Shown here in pieces: positions 27,432-32,903 of a stretch of 42,384 nucleotides of DNA. The notes under the pieces are model-generated. The model searched no databases. It had not been told where the DNA came from and saw only the letters and a program-made list of their open reading frames with translations. The DNA lies in assembly GCA_947504705.1 (NCBI GenBank), contig CANNIA010000030.1, forward strand, positions 1-42,384, read 5' to 3'. Source of the DNA: Paracoccaceae bacterium (GTDB taxonomy: Bacteria; Pseudomonadota; Alphaproteobacteria; Rhodobacterales; Rhodobacteraceae). The translations under genes and the position numbers were made by a program. The first letter of the stretch is position 1. The number at the start of each line of letters is the position of its first letter.

Positions 27432-28307
27432 ATGTGTCCTGCCAAACTGAACCGAACCGAAGAACGCGGCTTCATCATCCCGATTGGCGGGGGCGAGGAC
27501 CGGGTCAAGGACATGTTGATCCACCGCCGGTTTGTCGAGCTTTCGGGCGGGCCGAAGGCGGATATCGTGGTGATCCCGACCGCCTCGCAACTGGAAACCA
27601 CCGGGGCGGATTACAACCGGATTTTTCGCGATCTGGGGGCGGCGCAGGTGGAATTCCTGCCGATCACCAGCCGGGCCGATTGCGAGAACCCGCACTATGT
27701 CGAGATGCTGGGGCGCGCGACCGGCATTTTCATCACCGGCGGCAACCAGCTGCGGCTGTCGACCATCCTTGGCGGCACGGCGATTGCGCAGGCGATCCGG
27801 CGGCGGAATGCGGCGGGGGTGGCGGTTGCGGGAACCTCGGCCGGGGCGTCGATCATGTCGGAACATATGATCGGCGGCGGGCAAAGCAATGTGGGTCCCA
27901 TTGAGGGCGCGGTGACGCTGGCGCCGGGGTTGGGGCTGACGAATGCGGTGATCATCGACCAGCATTTCACCCAAAGGAACCGGCTGGGGCGGCTGTTGAC
28001 GGCGTCGTCCTTCAACCCGTTCCTGATTGGTCTTGGGATTGATGAGGATACGGCGGCCTTCATCGGGCCGGACAATGTGCTGGAGGTTGTGGGGTCGGGC
28101 ACCGTCACCGTTGTCGATGCGGGGCAGATGACCCATTCCTCGATGTGGAATGCGCGACCGGGGCAGGCGCTAAGCCTGCTTGGCCTGCGGGTCGATGTGA
28201 TGGGCGAAGGGTGCCGCTATGACCTGCGCGAGCGCCGCGCCTATCCACCAGATGCCGAGCTGGGTCTGGGGCAGATTGCTGCCGAAGACGGAACGAAGGA
28301 AGCCTGA
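27432..28307 (+). CDS. cphB: Cyanophycinase
   Basis: This is a 291-residue serine peptidase of the S51-like fold that cleaves cyanophycin to beta-Asp-Arg dipeptides. The start of the fold is GFIIPIGGGEDR. The nucleophile Ser is in AVAGTSAGASIMSEHMI near residue 136. FITGGNQLRLS and the His-containing VIIDQHFTQRNRLGRL are typical of the family. There is no signal peptide, so it acts in the cytoplasm on the stored polymer. The ribosome site is weak. cphA follows 53 bp later in the same direction. Confidence 0.92.
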   Translation: MCPAKLNRTEERGFIIPIGGGEDRVKDMLIHRRFVELSGGPKADIVVIPTASQLETTGADYNRIFRDLGAAQVEFLPITSRADCENPHYVEMLGRATGIFITGGNQLRLSTILGGTAIAQAIRRRNAAGVAVAGTSAGASIMSEHMIGGGQSNVGPIEGAVTLAPGLGLTNAVIIDQHFTQRNRLGRLLTASSFNPFLIGLGIDEDTAAFIGPDNVLEVVGSGTVTVVDAGQMTHSSMWNARPGQALSLLGLRVDVMGEGCRYDLRERRAYPPDAELGLGQIAAEDGTKEA

Positions 28308-28360
28308 CTGCAACAAACGTGCGGGGGCAACGTATCCCCGCCGAGAACGGGGAGAATGCC

Positions 28361-31162
28361 ATGAAGATCGTCTCGACCAATGTCTACGTCGGCCCGAACA
28401 CCTGGGCGAGTTTCCCCGTCATCCGCCATGTGATCGATCTGGGCGTGTTGGAGGACTGGCCCTCGGTCAAGCTGGGCCCTGCGTTCATCGATGCGCTGGT
28501 GGCGGCGCTGCCGGGGCTGGCCGAACATGGCTGTTCTTATCGCGTGGAAGGCGGGTTCCTGCGGCGGCTGCGGGAGGATGAGGGCACCTGGATGGGCCAT
28601 ATCCTGGAGCATTGCGCGCTGGAGATTCAGGGCGGGGCGGGGTCGGACGTCAGCTTTGGGCGCACGCGGTCCGCGGGCGTGCCCGGCCAGTACAACATGG
28701 TCTATGCCTACAAGCAGCGCGATGTGGGCTTGGACGCCTGCCAGTTGGCGATCCGGCTGTTGATGCATATCCTGCCCGATCATGTGAAGGCGATGGTGGA
28801 TTATGCTTTTGATCCGGAGTTTGATTTTCAGGCCGAGATGACCAGTTTCATCAAGGCCGCCCAGCGACGGGAATTGGGGCCCTCGACGGCCAGCCTGGTG
28901 AAGGCGGCAGAGGATCGGGATATTCCTTGGCTGCGGCTGAACGATTATTCGCTGGTCCAGTTCGGGCATGGCAAATACCAGAAACGGATCATGGCGACGA
29001 TCACCTCCGAGACCCGCTGCATCGGGGTGGAGATTGCCGGGGACAAGTCGGAAACCTCACGCCTGTTGAACGATCTGGGCCTGCCGGTGCCGCAGCAGAT
29101 GATCGTCTATTCCGCCAAGGAAGCGGCGCGGGCTGGGCGGCGGATCGGCTTTCCGGTGGTGGTGAAGCCGTTGGATGGCAACCACGGGCGCGGGGTGTCG
29201 ATCAACCTGATGACGGAAGAACAGGTCGAGGTGGCGCATGCTGAAGCTTACGCGCAGGGCAAGTCCAGCGGGGTGATTGTGGAAAGCTTCATCACCGGGT
29301 TTGACCACCGGATGCTGGTGGTGAACGGCACGCTGGAGGCAGCGGCCAAGCGGGTGCCGGGGCATGTGGTGGGTGACGGGAAGCTGACGATTGCGCAGCT
29401 GGTCGAAGAGGTGAACAAGGACCCACGCCGCGGCATCGGGCACCAGAAGGTGCTGACGAACCTTGAGCTGGATTTCCAGGCCGAACGTCTGATGACCGAG
29501 GCGGGGCTGACGGCGGAATCTGTGCTGGAGGCGGGGCGGCTGTTCTATCTGCGCTCGACCGCCAACCTTTCCACCGGTGGGACAGCGATTGACGTGACCG
29601 ACATCGTCCACCCCGACAACAAGGACATGGCCGAACGCGCGGTGATCGCGGTGGGGCTGGATGTGGGCGGGGTCGATTTCCTGATCGACGACATCACCAA
29701 ATCCTACAAGGACATCGGCGGCGCGATTGTCGAGGTGAACGCCGCCCCCGGTTTCCGCATGCACGTGGCGCCCTCCGAAGGCCAGCCCCGCGATGTGTCG
29801 GGCAAGGTGATGGAGATGCTGTTCCCGCTCGGGTCCAAGGCGCGCATTCCGATTGCAGCGATCACCGGCACCAACGGCAAGACCACGACCAGCCGGATGC
29901 TGGCCCATATCATGAAAGCCACCGGCCACAGGGTTGGTCTGACCTCGACCGATGGGGTTTATGTCGACGGCAAGGTGACGGTGAAGGGCGACATGACCGG
30001 CCCGACCTCAGCCCAGATGGTGCTGCGCGACCCGTCCGTTGACTTCGCGGTGATGGAGACGGCGCGCGGCGGCATCCTGCGGGCGGGGCTTGGGTACAGG
30101 CGCTCGGACGTGGCCGCCTGCCTGAACGTGACCGAGGATCACATGGGCCTTGGCGGCATCAACACGCTGGAGGAGATGGCGCGGGTCAAGCGGGTGGTGG
30201 TGGAAAGCGCCACGGAAACCGTGGTCCTGAACGCTGATGACATCCATTGCTTGCGGATGGCGGATTATGTGACCGCCAAGACGATCTGCTATGCCACGAT
30301 GAACGCCGAACATGCCTTGGTGAAGGAGCATATCCGCGCCGGGGGCCGCGCGGTCGTGCTGGAACGCGGCATGAATGGCGACATGATCACCATCTACAAC
30401 AACGGCACGCATTTGCCGGTGCTTTGGTCGCATCTGATCCCCGCGACGTTCGAGGGCAAGGCCGCCTATAACGTGCAGAACGCGATGTTTGCGGCTGCCA
30501 TGGCCTTCAGCTTTGGCGTTGACCTTGACAACATCCGCCATGGCTTGCGCACCTTTGACACCAGCTTCTTCCAGACGCCGGGTCGGGGGAACGTGTTTGA
30601 CGAGCATGCCTTCAAGGTCATCCTCGATTATGCCCACAACCCGGCGGCCTTTAACGCGCTGTCGGGGTTGGTCGACCAAATGGACATTCCGGGCAAGCGG
30701 ATCTTTGTCATCTCGATCCCCGGCGACCGGCGGGATGAGGATGTGGTGACAGCAGCCCGCATTCTGGCACCGCATTTCGATGTCTTCATCTGCAAGGCCG
30801 ATGGCAACCGCAGGGGCCGGGGGAACGACGAAATTCCGCGCCTGATGCAGGCGGCGCTGATGGAAAACGGCGTGGATGCGTCCGCGATCCATATCATCCC
30901 CGAAGAACCCGATGCCGTCGCCTTTGGTCTGAACATGGCCGCAGAGGGTGACCTACTGGTGATCAACGGCGACGATACCGTGCGCTGCTGGAAGCAAATC
31001 ATCTACTTCAAGGACCCGAACAAGGTCACTGAGGCTGCCGATGCGGCCAAGCCGCGTCCGATTCCGGCGGGGATGGAGGATCTGATCACCGACGCCGATG
31101 TCATCGTGCGCGACGAACGCGGCGTGCGTCTGGCGCGGGATCAGGGCGAAGGCGGCGATTGA
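28361..31162 (+). CDS. cphA: Cyanophycin synthetase
   Basis: This 933-residue enzyme joins Asp and Arg into multi-L-arginyl-poly-L-aspartate. It has the full CphA1 plan: an N-terminal domain (1-160), an ATP-grasp domain (about 220-480, with VVVKPLDGNHGRGVSI and VEVNAAPGFRMH) that adds Asp, and a Mur-ligase domain that adds Arg. The Mur P-loop is ITGTNGKTTTSR at about 501-512, followed by ETARGGILRAGLGY and ILDYAHNPAAF. The ATG at 28361 has GGGGAG 6 nt upstream; an earlier frame-open start at 28319 overlaps the leader. All three catalytic parts look intact. A second Mur-ligase gene follows after 7 bp. Confidence 0.95.
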   Translation: MKIVSTNVYVGPNTWASFPVIRHVIDLGVLEDWPSVKLGPAFIDALVAALPGLAEHGCSYRVEGGFLRRLREDEGTWMGHILEHCALEIQGGAGSDVSFGRTRSAGVPGQYNMVYAYKQRDVGLDACQLAIRLLMHILPDHVKAMVDYAFDPEFDFQAEMTSFIKAAQRRELGPSTASLVKAAEDRDIPWLRLNDYSLVQFGHGKYQKRIMATITSETRCIGVEIAGDKSETSRLLNDLGLPVPQQMIVYSAKEAARAGRRIGFPVVVKPLDGNHGRGVSINLMTEEQVEVAHAEAYAQGKSSGVIVESFITGFDHRMLVVNGTLEAAAKRVPGHVVGDGKLTIAQLVEEVNKDPRRGIGHQKVLTNLELDFQAERLMTEAGLTAESVLEAGRLFYLRSTANLSTGGTAIDVTDIVHPDNKDMAERAVIAVGLDVGGVDFLIDDITKSYKDIGGAIVEVNAAPGFRMHVAPSEGQPRDVSGKVMEMLFPLGSKARIPIAAITGTNGKTTTSRMLAHIMKATGHRVGLTSTDGVYVDGKVTVKGDMTGPTSAQMVLRDPSVDFAVMETARGGILRAGLGYRRSDVAACLNVTEDHMGLGGINTLEEMARVKRVVVESATETVVLNADDIHCLRMADYVTAKTICYATMNAEHALVKEHIRAGGRAVVLERGMNGDMITIYNNGTHLPVLWSHLIPATFEGKAAYNVQNAMFAAAMAFSFGVDLDNIRHGLRTFDTSFFQTPGRGNVFDEHAFKVILDYAHNPAAFNALSGLVDQMDIPGKRIFVISIPGDRRDEDVVTAARILAPHFDVFICKADGNRRGRGNDEIPRLMQAALMENGVDASAIHIIPEEPDAVAFGLNMAAEGDLLVINGDDTVRCWKQIIYFKDPNKVTEAADAAKPRPIPAGMEDLITDADVIVRDERGVRLARDQGEGGD

Positions 31163-31169
31163 TCAGCCC

Positions 31170-32903
31170 ATGAGCGAGGATATTGCTGATGCGCTGGAGA
31201 TCCCGATTGCGGGCTCGGACGCACTGAAATCCGGGGAGGCGCGCCGGCTGACCGGGCCGGGGCTGCTTTTGGACCGACCGGGGGCGACGCTTGAGGCGGA
31301 GTTCACCGGCTTTCCCCCCGCGCGGGTTCAGGCGCTGTGGCATCACCACGCCCGTCGCGTGCTGGAAGGGGTCGGCTGGGGGGCCGAACGCAGCGTCGCG
31401 CGGGTGTTTGACGGCGGTATAGCCGTGGCTATTTCGGCCCCGATGGACCGGCTGTATTCAGCGTGCTTCGTCGTGCAGACCGCCTGGCATTTCGTGACGG
31501 CGGACCTGCTCTGGCAACCTCGTGGCGACTATGGTGCGATGCTTGCTGACCTTCGAGACGTGATGGCGCGCGAGGCCAATCCGCCGCTTCTGGCCTTGGT
31601 GAATGCGGCAGAGGCGCGGGGGATCGAGGTTCTGGCGGATGAGGATTTTGTCACGCTGGGCCATGGGGTTGCGTCGCGAAGCTGGAGTGCCGTCGCAATT
31701 CCGGCACCTGAGGCGGTGGATTGGACCGGGCTCGGCAACCTGCCGCTGGGTCTGATTACCGGCACCAATGGCAAGACGACGACGACGCGGCTGGCGATGG
31801 CGATGGCCGAAGCGGCAGGTAAGGTCGCGGGGTTGACTTCAACTGATATGGTAAGAGTCGGCGGCAAGGTGCTGGAAAAAGGTGATTTTTCAGGTCCCGG
31901 CGGCGCGCGGCTTTTGCTGCGTGACCCCACGTTGGAGCTCGGCTTTCTGGAACTCGCGCGCGGCGGCATCCTGCGCCGGGGTCTGCCTGTGCGGCAGGCG
32001 CGCGCGGCGGTGGTGACCAATGTCGCCGATGATCACTTGGGCGAATACGGTATCAACTCGGTCGCTGAACTGGCCGAGGTGAAATTTGCCATCCGGCATG
32101 GTCTTGGCGCGGGCGGGGTGATGATTCTGAACGCCGACGACCCGCCTGTCGTGGCCGAGGCCGAGCGGCTGGGGCTGAAGGCGGCGTGGTTCTCCTTGCG
32201 CGACGATGCGCCCCAACTGCAGGCCGCGCGGGGTGAGGGGCGGCTTCATGGCTTCCTCCGCGATGGGGCGATCTGGCTGCAGGACGGAGAGGCGCAAAGG
32301 ATCGTGGCGGTCGCGGATGTGCCGATCACCATGGGCGGCGCGGCAAGTTACAATATCCTGAACGCGCTGGGGGCGGCCTGTCTGGCCTATATTCTGCGGG
32401 TGGATATCGGCTCCATCGCCAAGGCGCTGGCAGGCTTCCGCCCCGACCCCAGGGACAACCCGGGTCGGATGAATGAATTCCGCCATAACGGCGCACGGCT
32501 GTTTGTCGATTTCGCCCACAACCCGCATTCGATTGCCGCTGTGACCGGTGCCCTGTCGGCGATGCCTGCCAAGCGCAAGTTCGTGCTGATGGCCCAGGCC
32601 GGGGACCGATCCGACGACGACATTCGCGGCCTTGCCCGTGGCGCCTGCGCCTTTGGCCCGGATGTGGTGGTGGTGGCCGAGCTTGACGGCTATCGCCGCG
32701 GGCGCGAGGTGGGTGCGGTGCCAGCGATCCTGCGGGCGGAATGCCTGAGGCAGGGGGTGGCCGAGGCCGATGTGCTGATGGTCGATGCGCCCTCAGCCGG
32801 GGTGGCGCGGATCATGCGGCTGGTCCAGCCGGGGGATCTGGCGCTGTTGCTGGTGCATTCGGAACGCGACAAGATCTTCGCGATGCTGGGCGGTGAGGCG
32901 TAG
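31170..32903 (+). CDS. CphA-like Mur ligase without ATP-grasp domain
   Basis: This is a 577-residue protein whose C-terminal two thirds match the Mur-ligase half of CphA. The P-loop LITGTNGKTTTTR is near residue 198, then GLTSTDMVRVGG, LELARGGILRRGLPV, NVADDHLGEYGI and FVDFAHNPHSI. The N-terminal 190 residues are not an ATP-grasp and I do not recognise them. The ATG at 31170 was chosen because it directly follows the cphA stop; the ribosome site is poor, which suggests coupling. P-loop and ligase residues are kept, so it is probably active. It may add an amino acid to cyanophycin, prime it or modify a related peptide; its substrate is unknown. Confidence 0.75.
   Translation: MSEDIADALEIPIAGSDALKSGEARRLTGPGLLLDRPGATLEAEFTGFPPARVQALWHHHARRVLEGVGWGAERSVARVFDGGIAVAISAPMDRLYSACFVVQTAWHFVTADLLWQPRGDYGAMLADLRDVMAREANPPLLALVNAAEARGIEVLADEDFVTLGHGVASRSWSAVAIPAPEAVDWTGLGNLPLGLITGTNGKTTTTRLAMAMAEAAGKVAGLTSTDMVRVGGKVLEKGDFSGPGGARLLLRDPTLELGFLELARGGILRRGLPVRQARAAVVTNVADDHLGEYGINSVAELAEVKFAIRHGLGAGGVMILNADDPPVVAEAERLGLKAAWFSLRDDAPQLQAARGEGRLHGFLRDGAIWLQDGEAQRIVAVADVPITMGGAASYNILNALGAACLAYILRVDIGSIAKALAGFRPDPRDNPGRMNEFRHNGARLFVDFAHNPHSIAAVTGALSAMPAKRKFVLMAQAGDRSDDDIRGLARGACAFGPDVVVVAELDGYRRGREVGAVPAILRAECLRQGVAEADVLMVDAPSAGVARIMRLVQPGDLALLLVHSERDKIFAMLGGEA

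Follow-up and report, generated by a model that had tools for sequence, protein, structure and literature searches.

The window analysed here, a stretch of 42,384 nucleotides (positions 1 to 42,384, forward strand, of contig CANNIA010000030.1 in assembly GCA_947504705.1, Paracoccaceae bacterium), carries a cyanophycin locus in which the genes for cyanophycinase (cphB) and cyanophycin synthetase (cphA1) are followed by a third gene, here called X, whose product resembles part of a cyanophycin synthetase. CphA1 makes cyanophycin out of Asp and Arg and is built of an N domain, an ATP-grasp (G) domain and a Mur ligase (M) domain; X has counterparts of the N and M domains. The features of the locus are as follows.

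27432..28307, + strand: cphB, cyanophycinase of 291 residues (TIGR02069, 252 bits; cut-off 126.6)
28361..31162, + strand: cphA1, full-length cyanophycin synthetase of 933 residues (TIGR02068, 1114 bits; cut-off 850), with its HxxEH motif as HILEH, a member of the X-partnered CphA1s, which are one clade in the tree
31010..31159, + strand: C-terminal extension of CphA1, residues 884-933, made up of a variable linker, a conserved motif and an acidic end
31103..31138, + strand: conserved tail motif IVRDERGVRLAR (codon-position entropy over 27 genes)
31148..31159, + strand: acidic C-terminus of CphA1, EGGD-COOH (ExxD; the last residue is Asp)
31170..32903, + strand: gene X, coding for a 577-residue ligase that resembles cyanophycin synthetase and stands alone with N and M (Mur) domains
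31170..31727, + strand: predicted divergent CphA N domain of X, residues 1-186, including the start of the segment that in CphA1 connects to the G domain (structural model, Foldseek, hhalign)
31737..32855, + strand: residues 190-562 of X, the M (Mur ligase) domain, matched above cut-off by PF08245 and PF02875 and keeping its ATP, Mg and catalytic residues in 34 homologues

A sequence-only reading of this DNA had described the three genes as tightly packed, and the coordinates agree, with gaps of 53 bp between cphB and cphA1 and 7 bp between cphA1 and X. An in-frame ATG upstream, at 31098, would give a longer X that overlaps cphA1; the alignment of homologues and the proximity of the start to the cphA1 stop at other loci favour 31170. 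With starts chosen by script, the distance from the cphA1 stop to the X start is -11 to 30 nucleotides in 17 of 18 loci, and it is 15 nucleotides in the eighteenth (L011/L079).

What kind of protein is X? The only Pfam families that score above cut-off are Mur_ligase_M (residues 196-406; 69 bits, cut-off 24) and Mur_ligase_C (residues 432-560; 44 bits, cut-off 28.4), and a Pfam search taken up to E = 1 found no match to ATP-grasp families or to the N-domain family PF18921. The cyanophycin synthetase model TIGR02068 gives X 326.9 bits, below its curated cut-off of 850, and covers model positions 478-850 only, which is the Mur half. The predicted N domain of X is joined directly to the M domain, without the ~280 residues that hold the G domain in the neighbouring CphA1. 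An AlphaFold2 model of the whole protein (18-row alignment) has a mean predicted local distance difference test (pLDDT) score of 90.8, and the structures most like it are complete CphA1 chains, with a TM-score normalised by X length (TMq) of 0.82. Residues 1-186 modelled alone (20 rows) reach a pLDDT of 94.3; all 13 Foldseek matches to this part with E <= 0.001 are CphA1 or CphA2, the CphA2 chains coming first (TMq 0.48-0.56). When MAFFT was used to align X and CphA1 together it set the N domain of X in the G region of CphA1, and so only the M part of that alignment was used and the N domain was compared by hhalign and by fold. Against 28 CphA1 N regions hhalign gave an E value of 1.1e-5 over residues 116-169, which correspond to the stretch leading from N to G in CphA1; upstream of residue 116 the likeness to CphA comes from the fold, sequence-profile support being limited to 116-169.

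The models indicate that the first ~186 residues of X are a divergent CphA N domain and not a new fold. The claim that the N-terminal 190 residues are not ATP-grasp therefore survives the Pfam search, while their supposed novelty does not survive structure prediction; a decayed ATP-grasp at the N-terminus is ruled out by the same search together with the fold of the N part. The HxxEH peptidase motif was found in none of the 34 X proteins compared, as against all 42 partner CphA1s (35 + 7). It is accordingly unlikely that X makes primers by the known route (the endo-cyanophycinase activity of an HxxEH-bearing N domain), one of the roles first suggested for it, and absence of the motif rules out a primer-making peptidase in X. 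We infer that X probably descends from an ancestor resembling cyanophycin synthetase that lost its G domain; lacking that domain, X would not be expected to extend the polymer backbone with Asp.

The Mur site, by contrast with the G domain, was said at the outset to be intact, and this holds: the P-loop ITGTNGKTTTTR lies at residues 196-207 and DFAHNPHS at 447-454, and K202, E261, D288, H289, K305, R433, D447 and H450 are invariant in 34 of 34 X proteins, among which identity to the X of the window falls to about 29%; T203 is T or S throughout. These nine positions align with K499, E558, D585, H586, K602, R731, D745, H748 and T500, respectively, of CphA1s of solved structure. K499, T500, E558, R731 and H748 are described as ATP or Mg contacts in TeCphA1 (PMC9427784), and the paired D585A/H586A change as inactivating the M domain of SuCphA1 (PMC9262961). 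X also has in common with CphA1 a GD-x-[ST]-GP stretch. The lid differs: Ser (residue 481) replaces the second Arg of GDRRD in 29/34 X proteins. Another difference conserved in X is Arg at position 270, in 34/34. Compared with two congeners, the ratio of nonsynonymous to synonymous substitution rates (dN/dS) of X is 0.135 and 0.149 (496 and 495 codons), about twice the values for CphA1 within the genus (0.063 and 0.075), which points to purifying selection on X. The ratios, with the retention of active-site residues across distant homologues, rule out a pseudogene.

To see how widely X occurs, we used whole-genome searches for CphA-type Mur matches at several taxonomic ranks, in samples that overlap. 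Within the order of the window 26 of 292 genomes had such a match and 18 had X; the corresponding figures were 9 of 385 with X in 4 for the class, 29 of 398 with X in 5 for the phylum, 28 of 394 with X in 11 for the family, 14 of 274 with X in 6 for the class of genome G1008, and 2 of 11 with X in both for the order of G511. Counting each genome or plasmid record once gives 42 loci with X: the 18 from the order search; G511, G369, G1009, G1007, G903 and G1008; four named plasmids (two Ruegeria, one Shinella and 'Roseateles' XES5, the last marked unverified), which may duplicate some of the counted genomes; nine from the family and G1008-class searches; G1291, where the contig ends after the first 47 residues of X; and four congeners. 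Named relatives of X suggest that the window belongs near Roseobacter-type Alphaproteobacteria. Outside that class X occurs in at least one more class of this phylum (G1008, G1551, G1455, G1546, G1345, G1476), and a scan of genome contigs gave one distant Mur-type match (27% identity).

At all 42 loci X directly follows cphA1, so that the neighbourhood survey bears out the suggestion that X is conserved with cphA1; the 42 loci and the dN/dS values together rule out chance or decay as the origin of the gene. Both the X sequences (support 100) and the 25 partnered CphA1s (99) are monophyletic in a tree of 79 M domains, and X forms a single conserved family. Identity to the CphA1 of the window is 57-73% for the partnered CphA1s of the first set, at least 56.9% for those at loci added later and 72-95% for those of congeners; for the unpartnered ones it is mostly 37-47%, apart from two X-less relatives at about 55-57%. 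Pairwise identities among X proteins and among their CphA1s (a mirror-tree comparison, 34 pairs) correlate with r = 0.946, a value reached by 0 of 2000 permutations. In the window's genus this cphA1 was present in 5 of 32 genomes, and X adjoins it in all five (the window included). Because the gene is so sparsely spread and yet always accompanied by X, the cphB-cphA1-X unit is patchy and was probably mobile over evolution; in the Ruegeria and Shinella named records it lies on large plasmids.

The partner CphA1 has a feature of its own. Each of the 42 partnered CphA1s is extended at the C-terminus: a linker of variable length (37-64 residues in 27 genes), from which we take the tail to be probably flexible, leads to a motif close to [LIV][IV]RDERGVRLA, with RG in 40/42 and SG in two, and then to an acidic end. 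Every one of the 42 ends in Asp; position -4 holds Glu in 41 of them and Asp in one, and position -2 is small (A, G or S) in 38/42. The motif lies 14 residues from the end in 28 of 35 proteins, 13 in five and 11 in two; since the terminal Asp is constant although this spacing varies, the end itself is conserved. Across the motif codons of 27 genes, positions 1 and 2 have low entropy, being nearly fixed, and position 3 has high entropy, so that conservation is at the protein level and a DNA-level cause (a ribosome-binding or regulatory sequence) is unlikely. Nor does the motif behave as a general genome tag: it has one DNA match besides cphA1, and the total equals that of a backward control (one forward and one reverse match each). 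Neither the motif nor a terminal Asp was found in any of 29 unpartnered CphA1s, each of them closed by a genuine stop codon, and a further one, G1276, is also without the tail; this check took in those 30, together with G1045 and G1559.

G1045 and G1559, which belong to one genus, are the two X-less relatives mentioned above. The CphA1 of G1045 falls at the base of the partnered clade, although its exact position is loose (the partnered clade excluding it has support 59); G1559 was not part of the tree. X was not found in either assembly, that of G1559 being 83% complete, and HxxEH was not seen in either CphA1. Both tails keep RGVRI but end in ...QRRE (G1045) and ...QRGD (G1559), with no E at -4. 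On this small sample the RGVR motif does not seem tied to X and the acidic ExxD end does, a pattern that fits joint gain of X and ExxD, or their joint loss. In G1045 the gene after cphA1 (L153 9589-11775) is a cyanophycinase gene with two cyanophycinase stretches in one chain (TIGR02069 matches in two stretches).

Among 24 loci inspected the recurring arrangement is cphB-cphA1-X, with an iadA-like cluster in six and other neighbours in fewer, and a conserved wider cluster is not borne out; a cphB homolog is present at 21 of these loci and at 8 of 10 further X loci. Lysine-degradation genes flank 4 of the 24, three of Ruegeria type (by annotation or clustering) and G1008, the family model having been run on two of the four. 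In one Ruegeria locus (L047 1014-3635) an L-piperidine-6-carboxylate dehydrogenase (NF050084), an enzyme of lysine degradation, is encoded upstream of cphB beside a gene annotated as saccharopine-dehydrogenase-like, and in the distant G1008 the same enzyme is encoded directly downstream of X (L091 7327-8859). No lysine-degradation genes were found beside the operon of the window, and we treat these neighbours as a lead, no more, that Lys may occur in the polymer. Isoaspartyl dipeptidase genes adjoin the unit elsewhere (L075 6027-7193, L090 14098-15255, L086 8646-9518, L089 7247-8188), iadA (TIGR01975) scoring above cut-off in both cases tested and the iaaA-like genes below cut-off in both tested; such neighbours would suit a polymer that contains beta-aspartyl links. 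Finally, on contig 8 of G369 (L071/L099) a CphA1-like protein is split over two open frames, one N/G-like and one corresponding to the M part.

What might X do? The domain architecture, the catalytic residues, the partnership in all loci seen and the co-occurring tail are matters of observation; from the sequences we consider it moderately probable that X is an isopeptide (side-chain) ligase that works with this CphA1 by way of its tail. Such an enzyme would activate a side-chain carboxylate with ATP, probably that of a C-terminal Asp, and join an amino acid to it; it could not lengthen the backbone, and it would act in contact with the CphA1 tail (the RGVR motif and E-x-x-D-COOH). The tail might only dock X beside CphA1, leaving X to add a residue to the growing polymer, or its terminal Asp might itself be the acceptor, in which case CphA1 would carry its own primer. 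Several observations weigh against such a role. The partner CphA1 keeps both an M domain, intact by motif, and HxxEH, so that neither Arg loading nor priming is obviously missing; RGVR occurs also in the two X-less CphA1s and may therefore be of use to CphA1 on its own; the CphA1 of X-less G1559 likewise ends in Asp, though with no E at -4; the contrast with X-less relatives rests on one genus; and related sequences share history, so that the co-occurrence counts are not independent.

If the tail Asp is the acceptor, X might put an amino acid, most simply Arg, on the side chain of that C-terminal residue, or perhaps of a nearby Glu or Asp, for the G domain of CphA1 to extend, so that the first chain would be made on the enzyme. 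We regard this as possible but on the unlikely side. The constancy of the terminal Asp at a varying distance from the motif speaks for it, as does the resemblance of a small -2 residue followed by terminal Asp to the acceptor of the M domain, for which a chain must end in an Asp not yet modified (PMC9427784); so do the GD-x-[ST]-GP stretch shared by the two proteins and the want of ExxD in X-less relatives. Yet a partner that keeps HxxEH should make primers anyway, the final Asp of G1559 occurs without X, conserved acidic ends can be plain docking sites, and no report of protein-bound polymer stood out among the literature matches listed, no further search having been aimed at it. That cyanophycin synthesis in this lineage is protein-primed, with X modifying the tail Asp and CphA1 building the polymer on it much as glycogenin starts glycogen, seems doubtful. 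X may also decorate the polymer with another residue, cap it or form some other isopeptide. It might, for example, load Asp side chains of the polymer with a residue other than Arg, Lys being the likeliest choice, and so give a mixed or capped cyanophycin, a reading that is possible but on the unlikely side: the lid unlike that of CphA1 (GDRSD-like) and the independent placing of L-piperidine-6-carboxylate dehydrogenase beside the operon in Ruegeria and G1008 favour it, but lysine genes flank only the four loci noted above, and the lid change does not point to a particular substrate, because residues setting donor specificity in the M domain are not established in the literature consulted.

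As a second Arg ligase X could speed the side-chain step or repair missed positions; it keeps the ATP and catalytic residues and sits beside cphA1 in the loci seen, but judged by its motifs the M domain of the partner is itself intact, and no other CphA1 clade had such a helper in these searches, and we think this rather unlikely. It is quite improbable that X is a non-catalytic or regulatory subunit which binds the polymer or CphA1 and has lost catalysis. The twofold higher dN/dS relative to CphA1, a sign of faster evolution, and the loss of HxxEH from the N domain would suit such a subunit, but the Mur active-site residues are kept in every X protein compared, even the most divergent.

A side-chain ligase acting with the CphA1 tail would matter for the following reasons. 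Cyanophycin is a nitrogen-storage polymer, and how its chains are started in the cell is partly open; primer supply can limit yield in heterologous hosts (PMC9262961). A dedicated second ligase, paired with a synthetase whose tail ends in the target residue of the M domain, suggests a new priming or decoration step, and the tail, which the sequence-only reading did not mention, gives a more specific hypothesis. The polymer itself might turn out to have another composition, or X could provide a naturally free-standing side-chain ligase usable by itself.

How does X compare with known systems? MurE and its relatives share Mur_ligase_M and Mur_ligase_C with X, but the predicted N domain of X is of CphA type; X has no match to the N-terminal Mur_ligase Pfam family, and its best score against MurE-type models is 73 bits (cut-off 373), as against 327 bits for TIGR02068. 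Four named records annotate X as 'Mur ligase family protein' only. No paper on a G-less CphA paralog was among the literature matches listed, which does not prove that none exists, and the available text of the PMC10206079 survey makes no mention of X; X may have a place in trees such as that in the supplement of PMC3646047, which includes 'cyanophycin ligase-like proteins'. Non-cyanobacteria with neighbouring cphA copies are on record (PMC10687191, citing Fuser and Steinbuchel 2007). These resemble our locus in having two adjacent cphA-like genes, but there both neighbours are called cphA; the tandem cphA-type matches in G891 and G953 sit in open frames of 857-924 residues, the size of full-length CphA1.

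CphA1 (PDB 7lg5, 7wae) shares with X the N-domain fold and, in the M domain, the residues for ATP, Mg and catalysis, and the whole X model superposes on it; X differs in having neither G domain nor HxxEH, and its M domain shows only about 35% identity to that of the neighbouring CphA1. The CphA2 N domain is likewise without HxxEH (PMC9262961), and CphA2 repolymerises dipeptides with one active site (PMC10206079). Like X, this cyanobacterial enzyme (PDB 8fxi, 7ta5) is a member of the CphA family that has lost one active site, and its chains are the nearest to the model of the X N domain alone. The active site of CphA2 is that of the G domain, the Mur site having been lost. X is the reverse, with the Mur residues kept in 34/34 proteins and no G domain, and the mirror image of CphA2 that the sequence-only reading saw in it stands.

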